64,000 nt of DNA, from NCBI RefSeq assembly GCF_000255135.1, contig NC_016751.1, positions 1,178,001 to 1,242,000 on the forward strand. The letters run 5' to 3'. The translations under genes were made by a program, and so were the position numbers. Below are positions 14,165 to 32,452 of the stretch, piece after piece. The notes under the pieces are model-generated. The model searched no databases. It was not told the origin of the DNA and was given only the letters and a program-made list of their open reading frames with translations. Origin of the DNA: Marinitoga piezophila KA3 (lineage in GTDB: Bacteria > Thermotogota > Thermotogae > Petrotogales > Petrotogaceae). Numbering within the stretch: position 1 is the first letter of the stretch; each line of letters starts with the position of its first letter.

Positions 14165-15700
14165 TTATAACTTCTCTATTATATATTCCTCAATATTCCT
14201 TTTTTCTGAATTTATATTTATTCCTATGAGATATATTTCTTTTCCGCTGTATTTTTCATAGTATTTCATTTCTTTTATTTGTTTTAATGCTTCGTCGCTA
14301 CTTTGATCCAGTTTTATCTCAAATAAATATATCCTGTCGTCAAAATCTATTACTAAATCACTTCTTCCAAGATTTGTCAATTCTTCTGCTTTTACATCTA
14401 TTCCTGCCGAGGCTATTATTGTAAATATCAATGAGTGATAATATTTTTCTTCTTTTTTGTGTAGATTATACGGAACAGCGCTTATTATCTTTTTTATTTC
14501 TTCTATTAATCCTTTTATGTCATTTTCTTCTATTTTTAAATATATCTCACTTACCCTGTTTATTTCTTCATCATTAAATCCATAATTGGCTTCTAATATT
14601 AGTGTTGAAAAACTGTTTTTTACTTCAAAATTTGGATAGTCCAGTATATATTTTTTCTTTAATCCATATTTTTTTATTCCCTTAAAGGTTAAATATCCTG
14701 CCTGCGTAAAGAAGATATTTGCTTTTGCATCTTCTATTTCTCTTGTTGAGAAATCTTCTGCACTTACTGGTGTTTTTACTAAATCCTCATACTCTATCTT
14801 TTTGCCTTTTATGTATTCATACAAAAAACTTGGTGAGCCACTTTCAAACCAGTAGTTTCTAAGTTCTTTTTTCTGGAAAAATTGTAATATCGAAAATGGA
14901 TTATATACTGTATGTTCTCCATCAAATGAGAATCCATTATAATATCTTTTCATTTCCTCTAATAATTCTTTTTTTGTTATTCCAAACTTTTTTGCCGTTT
15001 TTTCTATATGTTCTTTAAAATAATATTCTAACTCTTCCTGGGTATATCCAAACATTTGTGAATATGCTGTATCTAATGATATATCGTTTAAATTGTTTAA
15101 TGCTGAGAATACTCCTGTTTTGGTAAATTTTGTTATTCCGGTTATGAAGACAAATCTTATATGTTCATCATTCGCTTTTATTGTTGTATAAAAATCTCTC
15201 AATATTTCTCTATTGCTTTCCGCTTTTTCTTTTTTATTTATATTGTCCAATATTGGTTTTTCGTATTCATCAACTAATATTACTACTTTTCCTTTTTCTG
15301 ATAGCTTCATTATTAATTCATCGAATGCAAACGCATAGTCTGTTTCTTCTATCTTTATTCCGTTCCTTTTTCCTTCTTGTATTATTATCTTTGTTAAACT
15401 TTCTTTGAGTTTTTCTGTATTTTCTGATTTCGCCTTTAATAGATTTAATCTTATTATTGGATATTCCTTAAAATCCCATTTGTCATATATATATGTATCC
15501 TTAAATAATTCCTTCTCTCCTTTGAATAAGTAATAAAATGTTGATACTGTTAAACTCTTCCCAAATCTTCGTGGCCTAGACATAAAATAAAATTTTCCAC
15601 TATTTATTAAATCATATAAATACTTTGTTTTATCCACATATATATAATTTTCTTCTATTATTTCCTTATAATCCTGTATCCCTACCGGCAGTTTTTTCAT
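14165..15700 (-). CDS. AAA-ATPase-like / PD-(D/E)XK protein (DUF1703 type), paralogue 1
   Basis: The 511-residue protein has the AAA-ATPase-like plus PDDEXK_9 architecture. It opens MKKLPVGIQDYKEIIEENY, has a Walker A-like SRPRRFGKSL (residues 41-50), a Walker B-like VVILVDEYEKPIL (about 143-155), the TGITKFTKTGVFSALNN motif, and a C-terminal nuclease-like core DLVIDFDDRIYLFEIKL. The family is abundant in anaerobes; its function is not established, though defence or mobile-element roles are suspected. GGAGGTG lies seven bases before ATG 15700, so the in-frame GTG at 15715 is part of the ribosome site. It is a mosaic relative of 19106-20647. Confidence 0.88.
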   Translation of the reverse strand: MKKLPVGIQDYKEIIEENYIYVDKTKYLYDLINSGKFYFMSRPRRFGKSLTVSTFYYLFKGEKELFKDTYIYDKWDFKEYPIIRLNLLKAKSENTEKLKESLTKIIIQEGKRNGIKIEETDYAFAFDELIMKLSEKGKVVILVDEYEKPILDNINKKEKAESNREILRDFYTTIKANDEHIRFVFITGITKFTKTGVFSALNNLNDISLDTAYSQMFGYTQEELEYYFKEHIEKTAKKFGITKKELLEEMKRYYNGFSFDGEHTVYNPFSILQFFQKKELRNYWFESGSPSFLYEYIKGKKIEYEDLVKTPVSAEDFSTREIEDAKANIFFTQAGYLTFKGIKKYGLKKKYILDYPNFEVKNSFSTLILEANYGFNDEEINRVSEIYLKIEENDIKGLIEEIKKIISAVPYNLHKKEEKYYHSLIFTIIASAGIDVKAEELTNLGRSDLVIDFDDRIYLFEIKLDQSSDEALKQIKEMKYYEKYSGKEIYLIGININSEKRNIEEYIIEKL

Positions 15701-15715
15701 CACTCCCACCTCCAC

Positions 15716-16684: not shown

Positions 16685-17284
16685 TTATTTTCTTTCATAT
16701 TTTCTTAATTCTTCTACTAACTTATAAACATTTGTATATGGATTTTTTTTAGAATAACTATTTATATCTTTCTTTTGTTCTTCCAATTTTTTTGCATTTT
16801 TTATAGCAACCTCTATTTTATCTTTTAATCTTTCATACATATCTTCAATATTTTTTTCATATTTAGGAATTTTAGATTTTAATTTTTTTAAGCACTCTTC
16901 CTTACTTAAAGTTGATTGCTGAAAACTAAAGTGCAACAAATACCATAATTCAAAACACGGATTAGAATAAATAGCGTTATACCCCTTACTTTCAATTTTG
17001 TTTATAGCATTATTAAAATCCTGATCTTTTACTTCATCTTTATCAAATACTAACCAAATTTGATCATATTCATCATTTTTTAAGTATTTTCTTGCTGCTT
17101 CTAGCAAAACATTTGCTCCTCTTCCTTCGCCTTCTACTCTAACATGTGCATTTGGAACTTCAAATGCTTCAAAATAAAGTTTTTCGGTTTTTTCTCCTTC
17201 ACAAACTATCAGTATTGAAGGTAATATTTCTCTTATATCCTTTTTTCTTTTACCTTTATTTTTAAAATATCCCTTCCTACTCAT
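16685..17284 (-). CDS. RloB-like protein
   Basis: The 199-residue protein matches the RloB family: SILIVCEGEKTEKLYFEAF (about residues 23-41), QIWLVFDKDEVKDQDF (about 95-110) and SNPCFELWYLLHF (about 127-139). The first two motifs, a Glu after a strand and a DxD, look like the metal-binding core of a TOPRIM nuclease. Together with the upstream AAA ATPase it forms a two-gene unit (4-base overlap) like those found in restriction loci and phage-defence islands, comparable in design to OLD or PARIS systems. Target and trigger are unknown. Confidence 0.85.
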   Translation of the reverse strand: MSRKGYFKNKGKRKKDIREILPSILIVCEGEKTEKLYFEAFEVPNAHVRVEGEGRGANVLLEAARKYLKNDEYDQIWLVFDKDEVKDQDFNNAINKIESKGYNAIYSNPCFELWYLLHFSFQQSTLSKEECLKKLKSKIPKYEKNIEDMYERLKDKIEVAIKNAKKLEEQKKDINSYSKKNPYTNVYKLVEELRKYERK

Positions 17285-18522
17285 TTTAAATCAAACCCTT
17301 TTAATATCTTTTTTAAATATGGGATTGCTCCATATTTTCCCTTTAAATAGTCTTTTTCAAAATTGGCATTTTTTCTTACTCCTTTTATTTCAAGAAGTGA
17401 GTATAATTCTGATTTTCCATATTTATCTTTACTTACAAACCAAATTTGATCTCTACTAAATAACTCTGGATTTAAAATAAGTGTATTATGCGTCGTAAAA
17501 ATTAATTGTGCGTTCTTTTCATTTTTTTCTGAATTAAAAAGTTCTATTATTGTCCTTAGCAACAATGGATGAATTCTAGTATCAAGTTCATCTATAAACA
17601 AAATAGAGCCATTTTTTAATGTTGCTAATACAGGACCTAAAATTCCAAAATATTTTTTTGTTCCATCAGATTCTTCTTTTAAAAAGTCAAATTCAATATT
17701 TTCTATATAATTATTTTTTTCATCAAAAACTGGATGATATGTTATAAGCTTATTTGAATATAATTTTTCATTATTTACAGATATAATCCCAATGTTCTGT
17801 GGAGTTAAAGCAACCTTTTCATCTGTTCTTATTTCTATTCTCTCATTTCTAAAATCATTTATTCCCATATCTGCATTTTTCAACATATTCAAAATTTCGT
17901 CTTTATTAACAACTCCTTTTTCCATTAAATCTAACGTAATTACAACTGGAAAATCTGTGGAAATAAAATTAATTTTTTGAAAAAATTCTACTATTTTAAT
18001 TGCAGTTTTGCTATTCCATTGTGCCAAAGACGAAAGAAAAAGAGTATTTGCTTTCGTCTTTTCCTCAACACCTTTTCCTTCTGAAAACTTCCCTCGTTTA
18101 AATTCTTGCCAATCTCTTTCAAAAATCCTGGCCTCACGACCTTTTGGCCTATAATAAAGCCATTCGCTTTCAATCTTTCTATCTTTTATAGAAAATCCAT
18201 ATCTATAATAAATTTTATCTATTATAAACCTTCCTTCAAAAATCATAGGTTCATCTATATATTTTTTGTTCAATTTAAATTTCTCATCTGGAATTTCAAA
18301 TCCAAAATTCGCAGAATTTAAAATAAGATATATATAAAATTTAAAGGCTTTAAATAAATTACTTTTTCCTCCTGCATTTGGTCCATATATTGCAGCTGTT
18401 TTTAAAAGTTTAAATTTTTCAGCATTAAAATAACTCTTTGCTTCTTTATCATCTGCTACCATTGAAAATTCTGTTCTTTCTGCAAATGATTTAAAATTAT
18501 AAAAACTAAAATCTATTAACAT
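17281..18522 (-). CDS. AAA15-type ATPase (RloA-like), partner of RloB
   Basis: The 413-residue SMC/ABC-like ATPase has Walker A YGPNAGGKSNLFKAF (residues 46-60), Walker B SILFIDELDTRIHP (about 305-318) and the switch FTTHNTLIL. The start at 18522 is chosen because GAGGTG sits 8 bases upstream and MLIDFSFYNFKSF is the standard opening of the family; the 19 further in-frame codons upstream are unlikely. In RloA/B or AriA/B-like pairs such an ATPase senses infection and controls a TOPRIM partner. That role is inferred from architecture. Confidence 0.88.
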   Translation of the reverse strand: MLIDFSFYNFKSFAERTEFSMVADDKEAKSYFNAEKFKLLKTAAIYGPNAGGKSNLFKAFKFYIYLILNSANFGFEIPDEKFKLNKKYIDEPMIFEGRFIIDKIYYRYGFSIKDRKIESEWLYYRPKGREARIFERDWQEFKRGKFSEGKGVEEKTKANTLFLSSLAQWNSKTAIKIVEFFQKINFISTDFPVVITLDLMEKGVVNKDEILNMLKNADMGINDFRNERIEIRTDEKVALTPQNIGIISVNNEKLYSNKLITYHPVFDEKNNYIENIEFDFLKEESDGTKKYFGILGPVLATLKNGSILFIDELDTRIHPLLLRTIIELFNSEKNEKNAQLIFTTHNTLILNPELFSRDQIWFVSKDKYGKSELYSLLEIKGVRKNANFEKDYLKGKYGAIPYLKKILKGFDLK

Positions 18523-18683
18523 ATTACAACACCTCACAAAATGGAATTTATAACAATTCATTATATTAAAATTATACATTATATAATTTTAAAAGTCAAA
18601 TTTGAAATTTTTATTCAATTTAGATATCTAAAATATATATCATGTACACTTTATACTCTCAAACAACCTCACCAATTATAACA

Positions 18684-18856: not shown

Positions 18857-18867
18857 TTGCAGGCTGA

Positions 18868-19093
18868 AAAAGAGTATGTAGAGATTTAGGAGATTATAAT
18901 GGGTTGGTAGATTAGGAGAGGGACTTTAAATAACTACAACTTCTAATTATGAAAATTCTAATGACTAAAGAATATTTTCACAATTTTGATTTCAAATAAC
19001 CCCACAGCAGAAGCTGTGGGAGGATTGATGGGGCAATTGGTTTTAATTCAAATTATGTTTGAGTTTTTGGTAGAGATTGATTGCGATGATAAC
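18868..19093. repeat. dispersed island repeat, copy A
   Basis: Contains the core (GTAGAGATTTAGGAGATTATAAT ... family) followed by hairpin CCCACAGC-AGAA-GCTGTGGG near 19001-19020 and a 3' extension (AGGATTGATGGGGCAATTGG onward) shared only with copy E. It lies just 3' of the minus-strand AAA gene at 19106. The 5' third seen in copies B-D is missing here. Confidence 0.85.
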
Positions 19094-19105: not shown

Positions 19106-20647
19106 TTACAACTTCTCAATTATATAATTCTCAATATTCCTCTTTTCAGAATTTATATTCATTCCTATGAGATATATTTCTTTTCCTGCATACTTTTCAT
19201 AATACTTCATTTCTTTTATCTGCTTTAATGCTTCTTCTGCACTTTGATCCAGTTTTATTTCAAATAAATATATTCTGTCTTCAAAGTCTATTACTAAATC
19301 GCTTCTTCCTAAATTTGTCAATTCTTCTGCTTTTACATCTATTCCTGCTGAGGCTATTATTGTAAATATCAATGAGTGATAATATTTTTCTTCTTTTTTG
19401 TGTAGATTATACGGAACAGCGCTTATTATCTTTTTTATTTCTTCTATTAATCCTTTTATGTCATTTTCTTCTATTTTTAAATATATCTCACTTACCCTGT
19501 TTATTTCTTCATCATTAAATCCATAATTGGCTTCTAATATTAGTGTTGAAAAACTGTTTTTTACTTCAAAATTTGGATAGTCCAGTATATATTTTTTCTT
19601 TAATCCATATTTTTTTATTCCCTTAAAGGTTAAATATCCTGCCTGCGTAAAGAAGATATTTGCTTTTGCATCTTCTATTTCTCTTGTTGAGAAATCTTCT
19701 GCACTTACTGGTGTTTTTACTAAATCCTCATATTCTATCTTTTTGCCTTTTATATACTCATACAAAAAACTCGGTGAGCCACTTTCAAACCAGAAGTTTT
19801 GGAATTCTTTTTCTGAAAAAAATCTCAATATTGAATATGGATTATATACTGTATGTTCTCCGTCAAATGAAAAACCATTATAATATCTCTTCATTTCTTC
19901 AAGCAATTCTTTTTCTGTTATTCCCATTTCTTCTGATAATTCTTTTATGTAATCTTTGAAATAATATTCCAATTCTTCCTGCGTATATCCAAACATCTGT
20001 CCATATTTCCTGTTTAAAGATATATCGCTTAAATTATTTAATGCTGAGAATACTCCTGTTTTTGTGAATTTTGTTATTCCGGTTATGAATACAAATTTTA
20101 CATATGCATCCTTTGTTTTTATCTTTTTATAGAATTCCCTTAAAAATCCTCTAAACTTTTCAGCTTTTTTCTTATCGTTTATATGCTCTAATATTGGTGA
20201 TTCATATTCATCTATTAAGATTACCACTTTTTCTTCATATTTTTTATTTAATACCCTTATTAAATTTCCAAATTTCGTTGGTAAATTATTTTCTATCTTT
20301 GGTATTTCATAATCTTCATATATATCCTCTATCATTTTATTTAATGATTCTATAAACTCTTCATATGTTGTAAGCGTATTATCAGACATATCCAGTTTTA
20401 TTATTGGATATTCCTTAAAATCCCATTTGTCATATATATATGTTCCCTTAAATAATTCCTTCTCTCCTTTGAATAAGTAATAAAATGTTGATACTGTTAA
20501 ACTTTTTCCGAATCTCCTAGGCCTTGACATAAAATAAAATTTTCCACTATTTATTAAATCATATAAATACTTTGTTTTATCCACATATATATAATTTTCT
20601 TCTATTATTTCCTTATAATCCGCTATCCCTACCGGCAGTTTTTTCAT
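19106..20647 (-). CDS. AAA-ATPase-like / PD-(D/E)XK protein (DUF1703 type), paralogue 2
   Basis: The 513-residue paralogue of 14165-15700 has the same Walker A-like SRPRRFGKSL, VVILIDEYESPILEH, TGITKFTKTGVFSALNN and C-terminal DLVIDFEDRIYLFEIKL. Its first ~90 residues and the last ~230 are nearly identical to paralogue 1, even at DNA level, while the middle (about residues 92-255) is clearly diverged. The start is placed at ATG 20647 behind GGAGGTGG, as in paralogue 1. The conserved operator-promoter lies at 20665-20689. Function is unknown; location in a defence island is the only hint. Confidence 0.88.
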   Translation of the reverse strand: MKKLPVGIADYKEIIEENYIYVDKTKYLYDLINSGKFYFMSRPRRFGKSLTVSTFYYLFKGEKELFKGTYIYDKWDFKEYPIIKLDMSDNTLTTYEEFIESLNKMIEDIYEDYEIPKIENNLPTKFGNLIRVLNKKYEEKVVILIDEYESPILEHINDKKKAEKFRGFLREFYKKIKTKDAYVKFVFITGITKFTKTGVFSALNNLSDISLNRKYGQMFGYTQEELEYYFKDYIKELSEEMGITEKELLEEMKRYYNGFSFDGEHTVYNPYSILRFFSEKEFQNFWFESGSPSFLYEYIKGKKIEYEDLVKTPVSAEDFSTREIEDAKANIFFTQAGYLTFKGIKKYGLKKKYILDYPNFEVKNSFSTLILEANYGFNDEEINRVSEIYLKIEENDIKGLIEEIKKIISAVPYNLHKKEEKYYHSLIFTIIASAGIDVKAEELTNLGRSDLVIDFEDRIYLFEIKLDQSAEEALKQIKEMKYYEKYAGKEIYLIGMNINSEKRNIENYIIEKL

Positions 20648-20664
20648 CACTTCCACCTCCACAA

Positions 20665-20758: not shown

Positions 20759-22090
20759 TCATTTATCTAATTCTTGCATAATTTCATCTATAAAAACATC
20801 TATTTTTCTTTGTAATTTTGTATCATTTAAATATGTTTTTTCTTTGAGTCTTTCTAAGACACCTTTAATTTTTCCTTTTGCATATGATGAAGAATATTCA
20901 TCTAGTACTGATTTTATTTCTTTTTTTACCTCAAACCCATAAGCATATTTATACAAAAATCTATATATTTTCAATTCAATATTTTTACTTACAGCATCTG
21001 ACCAAACTGTATCTTTTTCCTTTTCAATTATAAATTTTACAAAACACTCATATCTCTGGTTATCTGATAATTTAGCTACAATTATTTCTTCTAAAATAGG
21101 ATACAGTATCTTTTCTTTTAATATCTTCTCACTTGAAAGTTTATATCCAAAAAAATCCAAAATTCGTATATATAGAACTTCTTTTATTTCTTTATCTTTG
21201 AAATCATAAGATATTAAATACAATAAATATGACTTTATAAATTCAAATTGCCAAACATGTATAATTTTAATTTCTTTATATACATTTAATAAATACTCCG
21301 TATATAACTTTATGAATTCAAAAACCCTAATTGCATCAAATTTATTTGTAATAAATTGAAGATTTTTACTTAAGATTTTCCATGAATTCCAGTATTTCTC
21401 CATAATAAATGTAATTAAAGGAAAATACATATAATCTTCTCTTAAAATAACTTCTGTAATAAAATTATCGTTTAATTTATATATTTGTCCCTTTTCATAC
21501 TTATTTTTTTCCCTATCTATATAATTTAATATATTATAATATATATAAAGTTCTGGAAAAGCATATACATCTACAACTATTGAAAGCGCTATAATTACTA
21601 TTTCTACCAAAACAAAAGATATTACAAAAAAATTTAATTTAGAAAATTCCATTGAAAGAAATACAATTAATAATAAAGATAACCATACATATATTCCTAA
21701 ATCTAATAATATCTTGATTTTTAATTTACTAGAATATTCTTTTTTATACTCAAAAAAAGACATAAAAAGAGCTATTAAAGTAAACGATCCTACAACAAAG
21801 CTGACAATAAATCCTTTAAAAATCTCCCAATTAAAATTCTTTATTATATTCAATTCTAAAATATACAAGCTAAAAAAGGCTATAATAATTGCTATAATTG
21901 CTCTAAATACTATATTATTAACAATTTCTACAAATAATATTTCTCTCCCCAATTTTTTAAAATCTTTGGTTAAATATGAGTTCAAATATTCATATTTATC
22001 TCGTATAAAAGAAAATTCAACTATAATTACAGGGAGTATCCACATTAAAATTATTTCCAGAAAAATACTGTGTTCTATAATTTCTTGCAT
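20759..22090 (-). CDS. membrane protein of unknown function
   Basis: I do not recognise this 443-residue protein. It has hydrophobic helices at about residues 9-26, 54-78, 90-112, 128-145 and 150-172, then a soluble, helical, Lys/Glu-rich C-terminal region of about 270 residues (YDFKDKEIKEVLYIRILDFF and similar). The layout, an N-terminal membrane anchor plus a large cytosolic domain, is common among effector-type proteins in defence islands, but no catalytic motif is visible. It lies upstream of AAA paralogue 2 on the same strand but has its own terminator between, so it is probably a separate unit. Confidence 0.7.
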   Translation of the reverse strand: MQEIIEHSIFLEIILMWILPVIIVEFSFIRDKYEYLNSYLTKDFKKLGREILFVEIVNNIVFRAIIAIIIAFFSLYILELNIIKNFNWEIFKGFIVSFVVGSFTLIALFMSFFEYKKEYSSKLKIKILLDLGIYVWLSLLLIVFLSMEFSKLNFFVISFVLVEIVIIALSIVVDVYAFPELYIYYNILNYIDREKNKYEKGQIYKLNDNFITEVILREDYMYFPLITFIMEKYWNSWKILSKNLQFITNKFDAIRVFEFIKLYTEYLLNVYKEIKIIHVWQFEFIKSYLLYLISYDFKDKEIKEVLYIRILDFFGYKLSSEKILKEKILYPILEEIIVAKLSDNQRYECFVKFIIEKEKDTVWSDAVSKNIELKIYRFLYKYAYGFEVKKEIKSVLDEYSSSYAKGKIKGVLERLKEKTYLNDTKLQRKIDVFIDEIMQELDK

Positions 22091-22204: not shown

Positions 22205-22242
22205 TCTTAATTCCCCTATTATTTCAAAATTTCCATCCTATA

Positions 22243-22552
22243 AATTCCACCACCAAATTCAATGAAAATTTTACTTAAATTCAAAATTTAATTTTTTAGT
22301 TGCAGGGAATTAATTAATCAATGATATATTAAAATAAAGAAATTATTCACAAATATTGGTTGGAAAATTACATGAGGATTTTGTGGAATGAGATAAAGTA
22401 TGCAGAGGTTTAGGAGATTATAATGAGTTGGTGAATTAGGAGAGGAACTTTAAAGAAAAAACTACAACTTCTGATTATGAAAATTTTAATAACTAAAGAA
22501 TATTTTCACAAATTTAATTTCAAATAACCCCACAGCTTCCGCTGTGGGAGCG
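22243..22552. repeat. dispersed island repeat, copy B (most complete 5' part)
   Basis: Runs from TTCCACCACCAAATTCAAT through a conserved AGTTGCAGGGAATTAATTAATCA segment and the GAGGTTTAGGAGATTATAAT core to hairpin CCCACAGC-TTCC-GCTGTGGG (22529-22548). It lies 3' of the minus-strand gene ending at 22600. The hairpin stem is the same as in A and E but the loop differs. Confidence 0.85.
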
Positions 22553-22599: not shown

Positions 22600-23619
22600 T
22601 TAAATGTTTTGACTATTTTTTATTTGAAATAATGGTAGTTGGTCTACATAATTTCTTTCAAAATATGATTTGTCAAGTTTTTTTGTAATTGTTTTAATAA
22701 GAGCTTTCTGAGTTCGTGGATTATTGAGATTTTTTTCTGGATTTATCTTATATGAATTTAATAATATATCTATATCTCCAACTTTAATTGCCTTTTCTTC
22801 ACATCTTTTCAGGTATTTTGATTTCACAAGAATTTCATCAACCTGCTTATCAATAAACCTCAAAAACTTCCCACTTTGATATGAAGCTTTTATTATTTCC
22901 CAAGATGGACTTCTATTTTCTTCTAAAACATCAACAATATTAAATTCTTTATTCTCATTCCACCAGCTTAATTTAAATAAATATCCTACCAGCAAAGAAA
23001 AAAAGATTGAGGCATTTTCTTTTTTATATGCATCAAACCCCATTTTAAAATTAAAATAACACATAGGGGTATAAAAAAATTTATTTTTTTTATCAAAAAA
23101 CTCGTTAATAACTTCGTATTTTGATTCATTAAAAATTTCTAATTTGATCAAAGGATTATTATATTTATAATTTAATTTAAATACGCCAAAATTTTCATTT
23201 TCTTCCACTATATCGTTTATTTTATTTTTTATTTCTTCAAAGCTTAAATTACCACTTCTTATAATCAATAAAAGTTCCCATTCTTCTACATTTTTCGTAA
23301 TCCTTATTCCTGCACTTTTTAGTTTTTCATAACTAATAGAAAAATAACCATTAAGCTGTTCATTTTTAAATATATTTTCAATATTACCAGAATCTTTATA
23401 TTCAATTGGAAAAAGTATATATTTACCCTTTTCTTTAATTTTTAATGCTGCATCTGGATTTATCTTTGAAAATTTTGGTTCATATGCAAGAAAATATTTT
23501 ATTCCTTTATTTTCTAAAAAAGAAGTTAGCTTTTTTAACATTGTATAAAAAGCATTCATACTCCTTAATTCTTTAAAAAATTTTTCTTCTTGAAAATCGT
23601 TATTCGTATTTATAATCAT
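22600..23619 (-). CDS. unknown protein with a PD...ExK nuclease-like core
   Basis: The 339-residue product is not recognised. Residues 42-75 contain a pattern like the PD-(D/E)XK nuclease fold: FLAYEPKF, then PDAALKI (Asp56) and, after a strand, FPIEYKDS (Glu73, Lys75). The rest is helical/beta with a hydrophobic stretch ASIFFSLLVGYLFKLSWW (about 204-221) and a basic C-terminus. It overlaps the upstream gene by 20 bases, so the two are translated together. Nuclease activity is inferred from the motif spacing only. Position between repeats B and C marks the pair as one cassette. Confidence 0.75.
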   Translation of the reverse strand: MIINTNNDFQEEKFFKELRSMNAFYTMLKKLTSFLENKGIKYFLAYEPKFSKINPDAALKIKEKGKYILFPIEYKDSGNIENIFKNEQLNGYFSISYEKLKSAGIRITKNVEEWELLLIIRSGNLSFEEIKNKINDIVEENENFGVFKLNYKYNNPLIKLEIFNESKYEVINEFFDKKNKFFYTPMCYFNFKMGFDAYKKENASIFFSLLVGYLFKLSWWNENKEFNIVDVLEENRSPSWEIIKASYQSGKFLRFIDKQVDEILVKSKYLKRCEEKAIKVGDIDILLNSYKINPEKNLNNPRTQKALIKTITKKLDKSYFERNYVDQLPLFQIKNSQNI

Positions 23620-24694
23620 AATCTAAAATATTAAAAACCTCCTTTTCGCTAATATATAATTTACATAATGGATCATAATTTTTTCTAATAAAATTCAGTA
23701 TTCGCTTAACAGTATTAGAACAAGTACCCGGCCTTATTAAAATTTGAAGACCAAATCTATAAACATTTATTGCTAAACTTCCACCAACATGCATATCTGA
23801 AAATACACCATATGCTTCGTCTTCATCAGAAAATATTTGAAAAGATACTACTTTTAATTCATTATTATCATTCAATCTTTTCAAAAAATTCTCCGGTTTT
23901 TCTTTTAATTTCTTTTCTTTGTCAAAAATTATATAAACTCCTTCATAGTTATACGCCAGCTTTTCTATTTCAAACAATTCATCCGAATATTTTTTCGTTT
24001 TAACTTTAAAAAATTCTTTAACTTCTTCAAAATCATTGCCATAAAAAGTTATCTTTCCATTATTATAAGCTATTATATGTGTTGATTCGGGATTTGAAAG
24101 AAAATATTTTATTTTAACCTTATTCAACGGTAATTGCTTAACAATCTTTTTGTAATTATTTATAAAAGCTTTACTAGAATTTGATTCCAATGAAAAACTT
24201 ACATTCTCTTCATTTGCAATTAGTTCTCCAGGAAAAGAACTCGATATCCCAACAATAAATTCATCATATTCATCATCAGATTCATTGAAATCAAGCCATT
24301 GATAATCAAAGAAAAATGACTTCTTTATTAAACTCCCAATAATGGAATCCGAAACTTGCGAATGCGCCAAAGTAAAAATCGGAACAAATCTAAACCTTGC
24401 ATTTTCCAAGTCATAAAACAAATATGGATCTGCATAAAAATACGTGTCTCCTATTTTTATTTCTATTAATTCATTATCATCAAAATAACTTAAATTAGCA
24501 TCCATTCTACTTGTAAATTCTTTTTTCATATAATCAAAAAATATATTTTCATCCAAATTACTACTTGTTTCCAATACATAAACTTTTGGAATCGCCGATT
24601 CCAAATTTTCATATCTTCGCCCTTTTAAAGATTTTACCATCTTTTCATTTATTATTTCATAAAGTTGTTCTCTGGTATTTATTTCCAACTTCAT
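23600..24694 (-). CDS. unknown protein, first gene of a two-gene cassette
   Basis: I do not recognise this 364-residue protein. It is acidic and mixed alpha/beta, with no membrane helix and no Walker motif. Noticeable segments are IEIKIGDTYFYADPYLFYDL (about 77-96), FVPIFTLAHSQVSDSIIGSL (about 102-121) and a C-terminal DMHVGGSLAINVYRFGLQIL (about 301-320). It overlaps the nuclease-like gene downstream by 20 bases, which argues for a stoichiometric partner such as a sensor, recognition or inhibitor subunit. The ATG at 24694 follows AGAGGTGTACAT. No function is claimed. Confidence 0.75.
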   Translation of the reverse strand: MKLEINTREQLYEIINEKMVKSLKGRRYENLESAIPKVYVLETSSNLDENIFFDYMKKEFTSRMDANLSYFDDNELIEIKIGDTYFYADPYLFYDLENARFRFVPIFTLAHSQVSDSIIGSLIKKSFFFDYQWLDFNESDDEYDEFIVGISSSFPGELIANEENVSFSLESNSSKAFINNYKKIVKQLPLNKVKIKYFLSNPESTHIIAYNNGKITFYGNDFEEVKEFFKVKTKKYSDELFEIEKLAYNYEGVYIIFDKEKKLKEKPENFLKRLNDNNELKVVSFQIFSDEDEAYGVFSDMHVGGSLAINVYRFGLQILIRPGTCSNTVKRILNFIRKNYDPLCKLYISEKEVFNILDYDYKYE

Positions 24695-24966: not shown

Positions 24967-25040
24967 AAAATCACTCCTATAATATTCACAAATTAAAGTT
25001 AATTTGGTCTCCATAAAACAAATTTTTCATACATAAAAAT

Positions 25041-25190
25041 TCTACCACCAAATTCAATAAAAAATTTACCTAAACTTAAAATTTAATTTTTTAGTTGCAG
25101 GAAATTAATTAATCACTGATATATTAAAATAAAGAAATAATTCACACATTTAATATAAATAATCCCCACAGCAATTACTGTGAGGATTAT
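25041..25190. repeat. dispersed island repeat, copy C (internal deletion)
   Basis: Has the 5' part (TCTACCACCAAATTCAATAA, AGTTGCAGGAAATTAATTAA) and the terminal hairpin (CCCCACAG-CAATTA-CTGTGAGG) but lacks the ~165-base core. The join falls at TTCACA(C)AT, a short sequence present at both ends of the core in other copies, so deletion by recombination between those short repeats is likely. It lies 3' of the McrC-like gene. Confidence 0.8.
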
Positions 25191-25221: not shown

Positions 25222-27930
25222 TTATAAAATGTTAGGATCAAATGTTGGAAATTCACATAATTCCTCAAAAACTGTTGTATTTTCACCATTATCATTTTTA
25301 CCACATCTAGGGCATTTAACATACCATGGATATTTTTTATCTGTATCTGGAGTATGATAATTAAACAAATGTTTAATTAATGAATGGCCTTCTTTTTCAC
25401 AATGGTTTTTTACCCAAAACTCTCCACACGATTTACACGTATAATGATATTTATTAAATCCCCCCATTGTTTTTTCAACTTTTATTTCTATATTATCTAT
25501 TTCTCCACAATTCCAACAATAATTATAAAGTTCTAAATGATATTCAAGAATCATTTTTATAAAATTTTTAAAATATTGAATATTATTAGGTGTAAATGCA
25601 AATATTCCAAACTTGTGTTCCGGTGGAATTCCTTCCATATCAAATTTTTTTTCTAATTTATCATCAAGATATCCACCATAAAAAGTCCATTCATTATTAG
25701 TATCTGGATGTACAATAAAAGATGCTATTGGTTCATTTTCAGTATCTCTAAATTTTTTTGTATATTTATCTATTGCAACATCTTTTATATCTTTAAACCA
25801 TTGCTCTTTTCCTTGTTCTCTATAATTCCTATATTTTGCATCAAGATAAACAATACAATTCCTATTATCCTTTCTAAATTCAAAAGTAAAATCTGGTCTA
25901 AGTATTTTTCCATCATTACTTTTTATATTTTTATTAAAATATATTACAAGGTCTATTTTCTCATTGTTTTTTAAATCATGTTCTAATTTCGCTTTTAAAT
26001 TTCCCTGAAAATAATCCCATTGCATATATTTATTTAAATTATTTAAAACTTCATTTTTATTTTTTAATCTCCATTTTAATTCAGAAATAAGCACATCTAT
26101 CATTTTGAAAAAAGTCCAATATTCATAAATTTCATGAGTACTCTTTATTAAATAACTTTTTTCATTTAACAACATATTTGAATCAATAAAATCATGTATA
26201 AAATAAATCTTCTTGTTTAGTGCATTAAAATATTGCCAAATTTTCTTATAATTATTATCATTCGTAAATATCTGTGTTGGTTTTAAAATTAATTTCTCTT
26301 CTTTTACTTCTTTAAATAAATCTAAATTCAATATCTCATCAAGACGACTTTTTGCCTTTTTTAATTCATTTATTTTATCATCATAACAACTAAGATTATC
26401 TTCTTTTTTCTTATACAATTCTAAAAATCTTTTATTTTCCACAATAGACTCATAATTATCATTTAAATATGGAGCTAATTTTTCTACTATTTCTTCTTCA
26501 CTATATTCTGGTACTTTTTTATTATTTAGAGAATATATCTTTTTTATATTAATATAATATTCTTTAACCGGTGAACCATCTCCATAAGTATAATTCTTCA
26601 TAACTCTCACACATAATGGATCATTGTTATCATAATATTCTCGTTTAGCTAAAGCTTTTATTTTTATAGGATTTTTAAAGTCTTCTCTTTCAATAACTTC
26701 ATCTATAAAGAAAACTAATTCATTCAAATTTGACGTTTCAAATTTTAACATAAATGATTCAGCATTAAATCTTGACTGTTGAAAATTTTCAAATGGTGAA
26801 ACTGCATAAGAATAAAAACTTCTTTCTAAGGAAATAAATCTATTTTCTCTTTTTGTAATAAAATTACAATATAAAATTACTTTATTATCCTCTATCTTAC
26901 CATTTACTCTACTCTTAGGAATGGAAGCTTTCTTATATATATCAAAAGATATTTTAATATCTTTATCCTTATCTATATTTTCCAAACTCCTATTATTTTT
27001 TATAATAGTTTTAATATCCTCTTTGATATCTATCAATTTTTTCTCAATTTTCCCTAATTCACTATCAAAATCTATTTCTTTTTTATTTTGTTCTCTTATT
27101 ATATCAATTTCTCTCTTCTTTTGTTCCTTATAATTATTCAACGACTGAATATATAATTCGATCTTTTTCTTTAATAAATTCAATAAATATTTAATAATTT
27201 TATTTTCATAAATGTCAACACTTTCTACTTTCATTTGACCTTTGAATTTATTTTTAAATGGATACATCTTCTTTTCTACTAAAATTTTTGGACTTATTGC
27301 TTTCTTTGGATCATATTTAATCTTTGCAGGTATTGCCTTTAAAGACGCTGCAGGATTAGCATTTATTTTTTCTAATACCTTTTTCATATCATCCAAGGTT
27401 TTTCCTATTTCCACTAAATTTTGTACCCCTTTACCTGCTAAAAAAACTTTTGACTTATTATCCTCTATCAAATGCTCATTTATTTGTATTAAATCATTTA
27501 TCATTTCCAAGTAATCGCCATAACTCAAAGAGGAAGGCAAAACATATATAGGAGGTGAAACATAAATCCTTTCCCCATTTTCAAAAACTCCCACATAAAA
27601 AACTCCAGATGCATTGCTTCCAACATCTGGGTCATTATTATCATTACTATCATAAAATATCTTAATTCCTTTACCAGATATTGATGTTAATTTATTAATA
27701 GGTTCTTTTTCTGAATCAAGAATATACACTTCATAATCTTTGTCGCTTAAATCTACAATACTAAATCCTAATCTATACCTCTTACTATTAACCCTATAAT
27801 GGGTATAGGTTACCCAAAATTCTTTATTATCTTCCCCTAATATCGTCCCTTTTTTATAATTTCCCTTATCCAAAAATTCAATCCTTTTTAAATTTTTATC
27901 AACATTCATCATAAAACTTATTAACTTCAT
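25222..27930 (-). CDS. McrC-like DUF2357 nuclease subunit with zinc ribbons
   Basis: The 902-residue protein combines an N-terminal beta-rich domain, a helical middle with a coiled coil (about residues 255-310), a DUF2357/McrC-type PD-(D/E)XK core (LRPDFTFEFRKDNRNCIVYL at about 672-691, then DAKYR), and C-terminal Cys pairs (CWNCGE at about 803; CKSCGEFW; CPRCGKND at about 871) forming zinc ribbons. McrC partners deliver the cut in GTP-driven modification-dependent restriction; here the partner is the McrB-like ATPase directly upstream (4-base gap). Target specificity is unknown. It is longer than classical McrC (about 350), as DUF2357 members are. Confidence 0.85.
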   Translation of the reverse strand: MKLISFMMNVDKNLKRIEFLDKGNYKKGTILGEDNKEFWVTYTHYRVNSKRYRLGFSIVDLSDKDYEVYILDSEKEPINKLTSISGKGIKIFYDSNDNNDPDVGSNASGVFYVGVFENGERIYVSPPIYVLPSSLSYGDYLEMINDLIQINEHLIEDNKSKVFLAGKGVQNLVEIGKTLDDMKKVLEKINANPAASLKAIPAKIKYDPKKAISPKILVEKKMYPFKNKFKGQMKVESVDIYENKIIKYLLNLLKKKIELYIQSLNNYKEQKKREIDIIREQNKKEIDFDSELGKIEKKLIDIKEDIKTIIKNNRSLENIDKDKDIKISFDIYKKASIPKSRVNGKIEDNKVILYCNFITKRENRFISLERSFYSYAVSPFENFQQSRFNAESFMLKFETSNLNELVFFIDEVIEREDFKNPIKIKALAKREYYDNNDPLCVRVMKNYTYGDGSPVKEYYINIKKIYSLNNKKVPEYSEEEIVEKLAPYLNDNYESIVENKRFLELYKKKEDNLSCYDDKINELKKAKSRLDEILNLDLFKEVKEEKLILKPTQIFTNDNNYKKIWQYFNALNKKIYFIHDFIDSNMLLNEKSYLIKSTHEIYEYWTFFKMIDVLISELKWRLKNKNEVLNNLNKYMQWDYFQGNLKAKLEHDLKNNEKIDLVIYFNKNIKSNDGKILRPDFTFEFRKDNRNCIVYLDAKYRNYREQGKEQWFKDIKDVAIDKYTKKFRDTENEPIASFIVHPDTNNEWTFYGGYLDDKLEKKFDMEGIPPEHKFGIFAFTPNNIQYFKNFIKMILEYHLELYNYCWNCGEIDNIEIKVEKTMGGFNKYHYTCKSCGEFWVKNHCEKEGHSLIKHLFNYHTPDTDKKYPWYVKCPRCGKNDNGENTTVFEELCEFPTFDPNIL

Positions 27931-27934
27931 CTAA

Positions 27935-29812
27935 TTACCTCCAGAAGGTAAGTATATACTCTGTTTCTGCAAATTCCTTCATCTCATCAAAAATAACTTT
28001 TGATACTTTAGTTTTTTCCAACAATTTAGATATTTCATCGATTATTTGTTCATTTCTTTCATTAATACTTATATTTATTTTAGGTAAAATCATGCTTGAA
28101 ATTATATAATCTAACAAATCATCTCTGTCAATATAATCATTTCCTAAAATTTGTTTTACTTGATTATCAAATCTATTATTTAAATAAACCCTCATTTTTT
28201 TAAATATTAATTTTATTTCCTCCAACTCTTCTTTTATTTCGTCCAAAATATCTTTAGATTCCATTTTAAAATCTGATTCTTTTAAATATAACCGTTTTTG
28301 ATAATTTTCCTTTTCTAATTCAGAAAATTTAGAAACTAAATTCTCATCATATTCCTTAACTTCTATAACAAAACTTCTATCTATAACCTTAGGGCTTAAA
28401 CTCTTTGTAGTCTCATCCTTATTCACAGTTCCAACAAATCTTATATTATCAGGTATTTCCACTTGAGCCTTATATTTTTTTAACAAATTATATCTTCTTT
28501 TAAGAGCTAAAAATTCATTGAATTCTTCATTTGAAAGTTCTTCCTTTAAAGATTCCTTATTTTCATATTTTAAATATTTTTCCCATTTCATATTTAACTC
28601 TTTCAAATTCTCATCATAAATCTTTTTACTATATAAATCCAATATTTTATCTGATTGAATTTTACTTAAAAATTCAGAAAAATAATACTCAACATGAGAT
28701 AAATTCATTTCATCTAAACATAATATATACAATCTATCCTGATTTTCCTTAGCTTCAATAATAGCATCTAAAAAAGGTGTTGGAACATAAACATTTTCTA
28801 TTGGATTATAAAACCCTAATAAATCCTGATTATCAGTCCAATTAGGCTGAACAGATATTATCTTATGTTTTGCAGAAATTGCTTCTGAAAATCCTCTAAC
28901 TAAACTTGTTTTACCAGTTCCGGGCTCACCACTTAAAATTATTATTTGATTAGTATGAAGAGCCAAAAAGAAACGTTTTAAAATATGATCATCATAATAC
29001 AATCCTTTATTTAACGCTAAATATTTTTGTATATAATCAATTTGCTCTTTTTTATCTTTAATATCTATATATTCTTCTTTAATAATCTCCTCTTTTTTTT
29101 CATTAACATTATCCTCATTCAAAATACCCAACTCAATATATTTATTTCTTAAAATTTCAAGCTCTTTAATTTCAAATTCTTTTTCACTAACTATATTTTC
29201 AAGTTCTTTTAATCTTTCTTCTTGGGTCTGAATCTTATTTTTTATTTCTTTCAAATAATTATCTATATTTTTATTTACCAACAATATTCTCTCATTAATA
29301 ATAGAATTTATTTTATTTCCAAAATCTTTCTCTCTTATTTGCTCTAGAAATTCTATTAAGTTCACTGCGCTAAAAATTTCTTTTTCTTTAACGTTATTAT
29401 CTATATTATCCAAAATCTCCATAATATTTGTAACCTTATAAACTGTCTTACTTTTTGCAATTATAAGTTTATTTTTATCTTCATGTTGAGAAAAAGGAAT
29501 TGTAAATTTAAAAATTACTTCATCTCCAACCTTCAAATTTCTCTTTAATAAAAAACTATCTACATTTTCACACAAACAAATCGTATTTCTTAAAATCTCA
29601 TTATTGAAAGGATTAATAATAATATCATTTTCTATATTTCTCAAATTAGTTATCAAAAAATATTTTTCACTACTTGCAAGTTGGATAGTTCCTTTTAATA
29701 TGCTATTATTAGTACCAAACTTTTCATTTAAAAAATTAATCTTATCCTTTTTTGCCCAATTTTTATAATCTTCATATTCCACAATCTCTTCAAACATCAC
29801 TTCATTTTCCAT
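27935..29812 (-). CDS. McrB-like AAA_5 NTPase
   Basis: The 625-residue protein has an N-terminal region that may read DNA (residues 1-150), a coiled coil (about 190-250), then an AAA_5 motor: Walker A ILSGEPGTGKTSLVRGF (about 291-307), Walker B LYILCLDEMNLSHVEYYF (about 360-377) and the sensor RFVGTVNKDETTKSLSP (about 457-473) whose TVNKDE segment corresponds to the McrB 'MNTAD' site. With the DUF2357 protein it forms a McrBC-like restriction system. Start 29812 is chosen because GGAGGT is only two bases before the upstream ATG (29818) but eight before this one. Confidence 0.87.
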   Translation of the reverse strand: MENEVMFEEIVEYEDYKNWAKKDKINFLNEKFGTNNSILKGTIQLASSEKYFLITNLRNIENDIIINPFNNEILRNTICLCENVDSFLLKRNLKVGDEVIFKFTIPFSQHEDKNKLIIAKSKTVYKVTNIMEILDNIDNNVKEKEIFSAVNLIEFLEQIREKDFGNKINSIINERILLVNKNIDNYLKEIKNKIQTQEERLKELENIVSEKEFEIKELEILRNKYIELGILNEDNVNEKKEEIIKEEYIDIKDKKEQIDYIQKYLALNKGLYYDDHILKRFFLALHTNQIIILSGEPGTGKTSLVRGFSEAISAKHKIISVQPNWTDNQDLLGFYNPIENVYVPTPFLDAIIEAKENQDRLYILCLDEMNLSHVEYYFSEFLSKIQSDKILDLYSKKIYDENLKELNMKWEKYLKYENKESLKEELSNEEFNEFLALKRRYNLLKKYKAQVEIPDNIRFVGTVNKDETTKSLSPKVIDRSFVIEVKEYDENLVSKFSELEKENYQKRLYLKESDFKMESKDILDEIKEELEEIKLIFKKMRVYLNNRFDNQVKQILGNDYIDRDDLLDYIISSMILPKINISINERNEQIIDEISKLLEKTKVSKVIFDEMKEFAETEYILTFWR

Positions 29813-29888
29813 AATCATCTACCTCCAAAAACAAAGAATTATCTTATTTATTTTCTTTATACATATTTCTATACAAACACCGCATATA

Positions 29889-30198
29889 TTCTACCATCTT
29901 ATTCAATAAAAAATTCATCTATCTTAAGAGTTAATTATCCCTTTACTCTGAATTAATCAATGATATGCTAAATTAAAGAAATAATTCACAATTATTGATT
30001 GAAAAATTACATGAGGATTTTGTGGAACGAGATAAAGTATGTAGAGGTTTAGGAGATTATAATGAGTTGGTGGATTAGGAGAGGGACTTAAAAAAATGGC
30101 TACAATTTTTGATTATGAAAATTCTAACAACTAATGAACATTTTCACAATTTAACTTTAATAATTCCCACAGACTAAGCTGTGGGAGGATTGATGGTA
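29889..30198. repeat. dispersed island repeat, copy D
   Basis: Full-length in its 5' and core parts (CTACCATCTTATTCAATAAA, GAATTAATCAATGATATG, GTAGAGGTTTAGGAGATTAT) with hairpin CCCACAG-ACTAAG-CTGTGGG (about 30167-30188). The 3' extension stops after AGGATTGATGG, where the IS remnant begins. It lies 5' of the McrB-like gene and 3' of the next cassette. Confidence 0.85.
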
Positions 30199-32162: not shown

Positions 32163-32452
32163 TAAATAAAGAAATTATTCACAAATATTGATTGGAAAAT
32201 TATATGAAGATTTTGTGGAATAAGATAGAGTATGGAGAGGTTTAGGAGATTATAATGGGTTGGTGGATTAGGAGGCGGACTTTAAAGAAATGACTACAAC
32301 TTCTGATCATGAAAGTTCTAATAACTAAAGAACATTTTCACAAATCAAATTCAGATAACCCCACAGCAGAAGCTGTGGGAGGATTGATGGGGCAATTGAT
32401 TTTACTTCAAATTATGTTTGAGTTTTTTGTAGAGATTGATAGCGACAATGAT
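32163..32452. repeat. dispersed island repeat, copy E
   Basis: Carries the core, hairpin CCCACAGC-AGAA-GCTGTGGG (about 32360-32379) and the same 3' extension as copy A (GGATTGATGGGGCAATTG ... GTAGAGATTGAT). It lies 3' of the flippase gene, at the border between the defence island and the polysaccharide locus. It lacks the 5' third seen in B-D. Confidence 0.85.

Follow-up and report, generated by a model that had tools for sequence, protein, structure and literature searches.

The DNA analysed here, a stretch of 64,000 nucleotides from the Marinitoga piezophila KA3 genome (2.24 Mb, two contigs; positions 1178001-1242000 of contig NC_016751.1) that is called the window below, carries a two-gene cassette on its minus strand. 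Gene A (364 aa, 23600..24694) comes first and is followed by gene B (339 aa, 22600..23619). The ORF coordinates agree with the protein lengths and the 20-base overlap (23600..23619, minus strand) given in the preliminary description, and overlap or close abutment of the two genes is kept in homologues. AlphaFold and Foldseek results, together with the homologues, point to A as a predicted tandem TBP-like protein and the proposed nucleic-acid recognition subunit. B is a putative PD-(D/E)XK nuclease whose carboxyl-terminal half is probably winged-helix and which ends in a predicted sliding-clamp tail, as judged from alignment, Pfam matches of homologues and a structural model.

The cassette is bounded by repeats, as had been noted before. 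Direct repeats of 125 nt, 88% identical to each other, lie upstream of A (25025..25149) and downstream of B (22230..22354), the latter with further copies elsewhere in the genome, and a terminator-like hairpin (22528..22549, minus strand) follows B at the end of a repeat unit. Related intergenic repeats, at 18866-19022, 22332-22550 (the unit that ends with the hairpin), 29951-30194 and 32164-32388, lie between the cassettes of this stretch, which is rich in defence genes, and could drive cassette exchange. Upstream of A is the McrBC-like system that had already been recognised as its neighbour (25222-29818; PDC-M26A/B in PADLOC), composed of an ATPase gene matching AAA_5 (27935-29818) and a partner gene matching DUF2357 and PDDEXK_7 (25222-27930). 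A/B was not counted as part of this system, which comprises two genes of its own and is separated from A by 527 bp and the repeat.

The side of the cassette next to B features an AbiL-type pair (16685-18579) coding for an AAA_21 ATPase and RloB. On both sides of this pair are near-duplicate ORFs (14165-15715 and 19106-20662, 516-518 aa) of AAA-ATPase-like/PD-(D/E)XK type, whose end segments are 91-94% identical. The protein of 443 aa whose gene adjoins the cassette (20759-22090) has a hydrophobic amino-terminal part and no family match.

Neither A nor B of the window gave an above-chance match in Pfam, NCBIfam or PADLOC-DB 2.0.0 (2023), in line with the earlier view that they belong to no known family, and PDB sequence profiles revealed no relative of either protein. 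Their homologues are equally without match in Pfam, NCBIfam and PADLOC, bar nuclease matches of B. One PHROGs family to which no function is assigned there, phrog_22469, matches A of two Bacilli loci. The same gene order at about 30 distant loci is more than chance and bears out the preliminary reading of a two-gene operon. Judged against the PADLOC-DB of 2023, A/B appears to be an unnamed conserved two-gene operon, of which a newer description may exist.

The family was opened by a three-row alignment and then by tblastn with the A protein of another Thermotogota genome (G015); profile scans followed. Single-protein scans of genome and viral contigs with A and B of the window yielded no further relatives. 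The roughly 30 loci recovered belong to several bacterial phyla and to archaea, and the order is always A then B, usually with overlap. B lies downstream of A at every locus with a readable flank, including that of a Chloroflexota genome (L030); it is in fragments at one locus (L076), while A is broken at another (L031). The homologues are accessory and mobile, and not the single genes of conserved metabolic loci that the preliminary description had considered as a counter-case.

A search of 103 genomes of the phylum found A in the window genome, G079 and G015 and B only in the first two; neither gene was found in any of six congeners. The three Thermotogota sequences group with full support in the tree of A. 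In G079 the pair lies in a prophage, with early genes on one side and the terminase on the other, and this prophage is also present as a viral contig; in G015 the pair follows repressor-type genes and directly precedes a large serine recombinase. The tblastn search with the G015 protein led to plasmids of Halobacterium, Metabacillus and Lysinibacillus and to the large extrachromosomal element of Methanocaldococcus jannaschii, in each of which a second gene overlaps A. Profile scans added twelve more loci in archaea, Bacilli and Chloroflexota, 16 further genomes among 345 of one archaeal phylum, and a viral contig on which A/B is located beside an IrrE-type gene and an integrase in a lysogeny module. 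One locus has a TnsD neighbour within a Tn7-like element. Samples of 399, 301, 13 and 250 genomes around other carriers gave a match only in the central genome, plus one broken copy among the 301. The distribution of A/B is mobile and patchy, which fits defence or conflict better than housekeeping repair.

Two sets of candidate homologues were not retained. Matches to A in G046 and G049 (E 1e-4) are placed within carbohydrate-metabolism operons and were dropped as chance, and a Natronosalvus plasmid match that sits in a run of small genes was not counted. In one Chloroflexota genome (G1021, L088/L089) the A gene is broken by in-frame stops.

Seven Bacilli loci have a PemK/MazF-like gene ahead of A/B and in the same orientation (L018:3333-4040, L024:5026-5763, L025:449-1159, L026:4838-5566, L027:4841-5569, L028:326-1048 and L015:5775-6491), which matches Pfam PemK in six of them; it is absent in the window. 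In Bacilli, A/B may include this gene as a third component. An annotated EVE-domain gene is found near A/B in M. jannaschii (L017:1765-2199) and a gene that looks ASCH-like by eye in an Anaerolineales genome (L030:4354-5223). The neighbour survey for defence-island enrichment that had been proposed gave PADLOC matches modestly above the control, with 319 families matched among 129 neighbours of A/B vs 205 among 126 control proteins, a tally in which model overlap raises the two counts alike and restriction genes are present in the control regions as well. This modest excess is suggestive and by itself no proof of defence-island enrichment.

The preliminary description had read residues Asp56, Glu73 and Lys75 of B as a PD-(D/E)XK core, and the alignment of 13 B proteins upholds this: the residues are in place and conserved. 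The core (P55-D56 ... E73-x-K75; 23395..23457, minus strand) is followed by a helix with the nearly invariant motif Q88-x3-Y92 (23344..23358, minus strand). P55 and K75 do not vary at all, E73, Q88, Y92 and W240 hardly do, and D56 and E73 are conserved with D/E exchange; the overall pattern is P-[DE]-x(n)-[DE]-x-K, then Q-x3-Y. Homologues of B match HSDR_N_2 (four members, best E 1.5e-5), Hjc, PDDEXK_11, Card1 and DUF234, all of them PD-(D/E)XK families; B of the window itself matches none of these profiles.

The AlphaFold check suggested in the preliminary description gave a poor model for B, with a mean pLDDT of 62 overall and of about 50 in the nuclease half. The element order of this half fits an alpha-beta-beta-beta-alpha-beta fold. 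Foldseek with the B model, in which the nuclease half is of low confidence, found no nuclease and returned only weak winged-helix matches from the better-modelled carboxyl-terminal half. One B homologue matches MksE (0.0048), and this half of B is probably winged-helix. The low-confidence model of the nuclease half neither bears out nor dismisses the other counter-case of the preliminary description, a predicted structure without a nuclease fold. The nuclease call is based on motif conservation and family matches, by which B is a predicted PD-(D/E)XK nuclease. In one archaeal group (L077, L078, L079, L081, L082 and L084) the core of B reads ExT, not ExK, so nuclease activity was possibly lost or altered there; several of these proteins keep a PIP-type tail.

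The most informative feature of B, absent from the preliminary description, is its carboxyl terminus. Residues 327-331 read QLPLF (22627..22641, minus strand), a predicted beta-clamp-binding motif by motif match and background rates. Published work gives QL[S/D]LF as the consensus for binding the beta clamp, with Q-phi-x-[L/M]-[F/L] as its wider form (PMC13254535). Other bacterial B proteins end in ELPLF (G079), QLSLPF (G015) and QLSLF (Lysinibacillus), and QLSLF is also the tail of the Chloroflexota protein of L030, which was translated only after the clamp idea had been formed. In two of the host genomes the DinB polymerase has QLDLF. Archaeal tails are of PIP type, with QAGLQEFF and QSNLSNF at the very end of the protein and also QTSLDDF, QRTLSDF, QRTIADF and QTEIGDF. 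The clamp motif of NucS is a carboxyl-terminal PIP in archaea and [E/K][L/Y][T/R]LF in Actinobacteria (PMC8228993).

Counted over the terminal 25 residues, 10 of 12 bacterial B proteins contain Q[LMI]x[LI], against 0.59 expected from shuffled sequences, and 7 of 16 archaeal ones contain QxxLxxF, against 0.29 expected; since the sequences are related, these counts overstate their independence. The same shuffle test on the last 25 residues of A proteins showed no excess. The PIP pattern is carried by about 2% or less of the ordinary proteins of control regions, and Q[LM][SDTP][LI] occurs in the control-region set only in B genes that chanced to be there. The Bacillaceae tails, QLTIDEFL, are close to PIP and a poor fit to the beta-clamp consensus, and about half of the archaeal B tails are without a clean PIP box. 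The M. jannaschii protein (L017:7449-8765) ends in QTTLD, like a PIP box cut short by the stop codon; the downstream frames have no clear PIP continuation. By sequence, the form of the tail motif appears to switch with the domain of life between beta-clamp type and PIP, as in clamp ligands, and it is inferred that B would dock on the sliding clamp through its tail.

The AlphaFold model of A is good (mean pLDDT 78.7, pTM 0.81). Its elements can be read as helix-strand-helix-four strands-helix twice over, and one half of TBP has this topology. The best Foldseek match of A is RnlA (E 4.6e-4), with TBP further down; an independent viral library returned an RNaseLS-like protein (9.5e-5), a giant-virus TBP (3.8e-4) and also a B263R homologue. 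TM-scores of A with RnlA and TBP are low, and the sequence test for an internal duplication found none, the two halves being unlike. A is predicted to have a double TBP-like fold. The earlier suggestion of a sensor or specificity subunit is plausible in its recognition part, given this predicted fold.

A local TBP-like signature in A (residues 206-236, AYNNGKITFYG ... Y236; 23987..24079, minus strand) surrounds G213-K214, ends at Y236 and is present in 25 of 28 A proteins. Residues 192-235 match DUF3378 of Pfam weakly (E 0.06), and profile comparison with the RNase HIII amino-terminal domain, which in two Bacilli genomes reads AYRSGKVLFQG where A has AYNNGKITFYG, picks these residues, again weakly (E 0.096). 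In RNase HIII a tyrosine stacks on the DNA strand of the RNA/DNA hybrid (PMC4132731), and Tyr210 of A is by eye its counterpart. From this correspondence one may guess, and only guess, that the ligand of A could be an RNA:DNA hybrid or a primer. The family-profile search with A gave neither a HEPN nor an RNase H match.

Comparison of the loci shows the conserved two-gene order, the mobile contexts, the nuclease core and the domain-dependent tail motif. The reading that we favour, at somewhat better than even chances, is that A/B is a mobile cassette for defence or inter-element conflict in which A recognises nucleic acid and clamp-held B cuts at forks. The tail of B would occupy the pocket in which partners bind to the replicative sliding clamp (beta clamp for bacteria, PCNA for archaea), and clamp-bound B would ride on replicating DNA. 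Many phages and plasmids load the host clamp, so that clamp-held B would be aimed at replicating invaders. The host also loads its clamp, and A would therefore have to supply restraint or discrimination: as a saddle-type TBP-like protein without a recognisable nuclease domain, it might recognise a nucleic-acid feature and license or aim B. The outcome would be cleavage of incoming phage or plasmid DNA by B at forks. We infer in this way both a function of A/B in defence against viruses or plasmids and its presumed capacity to discriminate self from non-self. A more far-reaching version is less likely than not, namely a new class of immune system common to bacteria and archaea with a clamp-docked nuclease, whose docking peptide was rewritten across domains, and a TBP-like saddle that senses hybrids or primers at foreign forks.

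The same features could belong to a fork-associated accessory of DNA repair with no defence role, B cutting mismatched or damaged DNA like NucS/EndoMS under clamp control and A recognising the lesion. NucS is a PD-(D/E)XK nuclease with a carboxyl-terminal clamp motif in archaea and Actinobacteria (PMC8228993), and the tail of B follows the same logic. Repair enzymes are, however, usually stable chromosomal genes, while A/B is rare, patchy, carried by prophages and plasmids and absent from congeners, and no above-chance match to the NucS family was obtained; a repair function is rather improbable. Of small probability too is a restriction-like pair untied to forks, in which A reads a DNA or RNA feature, B cuts, and the tail serves some other contact such as that between B and A. 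The HsdR amino-terminal domain as best nuclease family match of B homologues, the neighbours at two loci that resemble modified-base readers (EVE; ASCH-like by eye) and the imperfect tail motifs of Bacillaceae would agree with it, but against it stand the change of tail form between bacteria and archaea, a behaviour shared with clamp ligands, and the scarcity of the motif among ordinary proteins. Toxin-antitoxin activity or plasmid/prophage maintenance, with one protein restraining the other and released B killing, or blocking the replication of, cells or rival elements, would account for an overlapping gene pair on plasmids and prophages, for the toxin-antitoxin protein RnlA as nearest structural match of A and for the PemK-like genes just upstream in Bacillaceae, but it is unlikely for two large proteins of equal size that include no small antitoxin and an A without HEPN match, and it falls in part within the main reading, since toxin-antitoxin and defence functions overlap.

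If defence or conflict by a clamp-held nuclease is correct, A/B would represent a simple means of directing a nuclease to invaders as they replicate, and its two genes would make a unit compact enough to pass between bacteria and archaea. A TBP-like module for recognition would also join the known components of conflict systems in prokaryotes. The defined residues in A and B make the clamp-tethering idea directly testable. We know of no described defence system whose nuclease is docked on the sliding clamp, nor is one named in the literature searched, which leaves out most subscription papers.

Several known systems share single aspects with A/B. B has the nuclease superfamily and motif order of the HsdR amino-terminal domain and other restriction nucleases, the former being the best Pfam match of its homologues, but the cassette is without helicase motor, methylase or specificity subunit. 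The TOTE and TALON conflict systems (TPR, OB, TBP, effector) combine a TBP-type protein with a PD-(D/E)XK effector (PMC12458937). They share with A/B the theme of TBP plus nuclease, A being set beside the TOTE TBP by description only, whereas the cassette has two genes only, homologous loci included, and lacks a TPR-OB/cold-shock partner and a YprA helicase. The RNase HIII amino-terminal domain (DUF3378), which is TBP-like and binds the RNA/DNA hybrid, resembles A in its local pattern and through the weak Pfam match; A differs in having no RNase H domain, and with E 0.096 the profile comparison falls short of significance.

TBP-like domains occur in the RnlA/RNase LS family (PMC3710099), which gave the best structural match of A in two libraries. 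A differs in giving no HEPN match and in being paired with a 339-aa nuclease candidate where that family has the small RnlB antitoxin. NucS/EndoMS resembles B in combining a PD-(D/E)XK nuclease with a short carboxyl-terminal clamp motif, which in B is a sequence motif. Its family profile found among B homologues only a NucS_C match in a single protein (E 0.084), and B has its nuclease core near the amino terminus. NucS is a stand-alone housekeeping repair gene, while B has A as its partner and is mobile and patchily distributed. A/B is closest to NucS in its predicted tethering, but it is not NucS.
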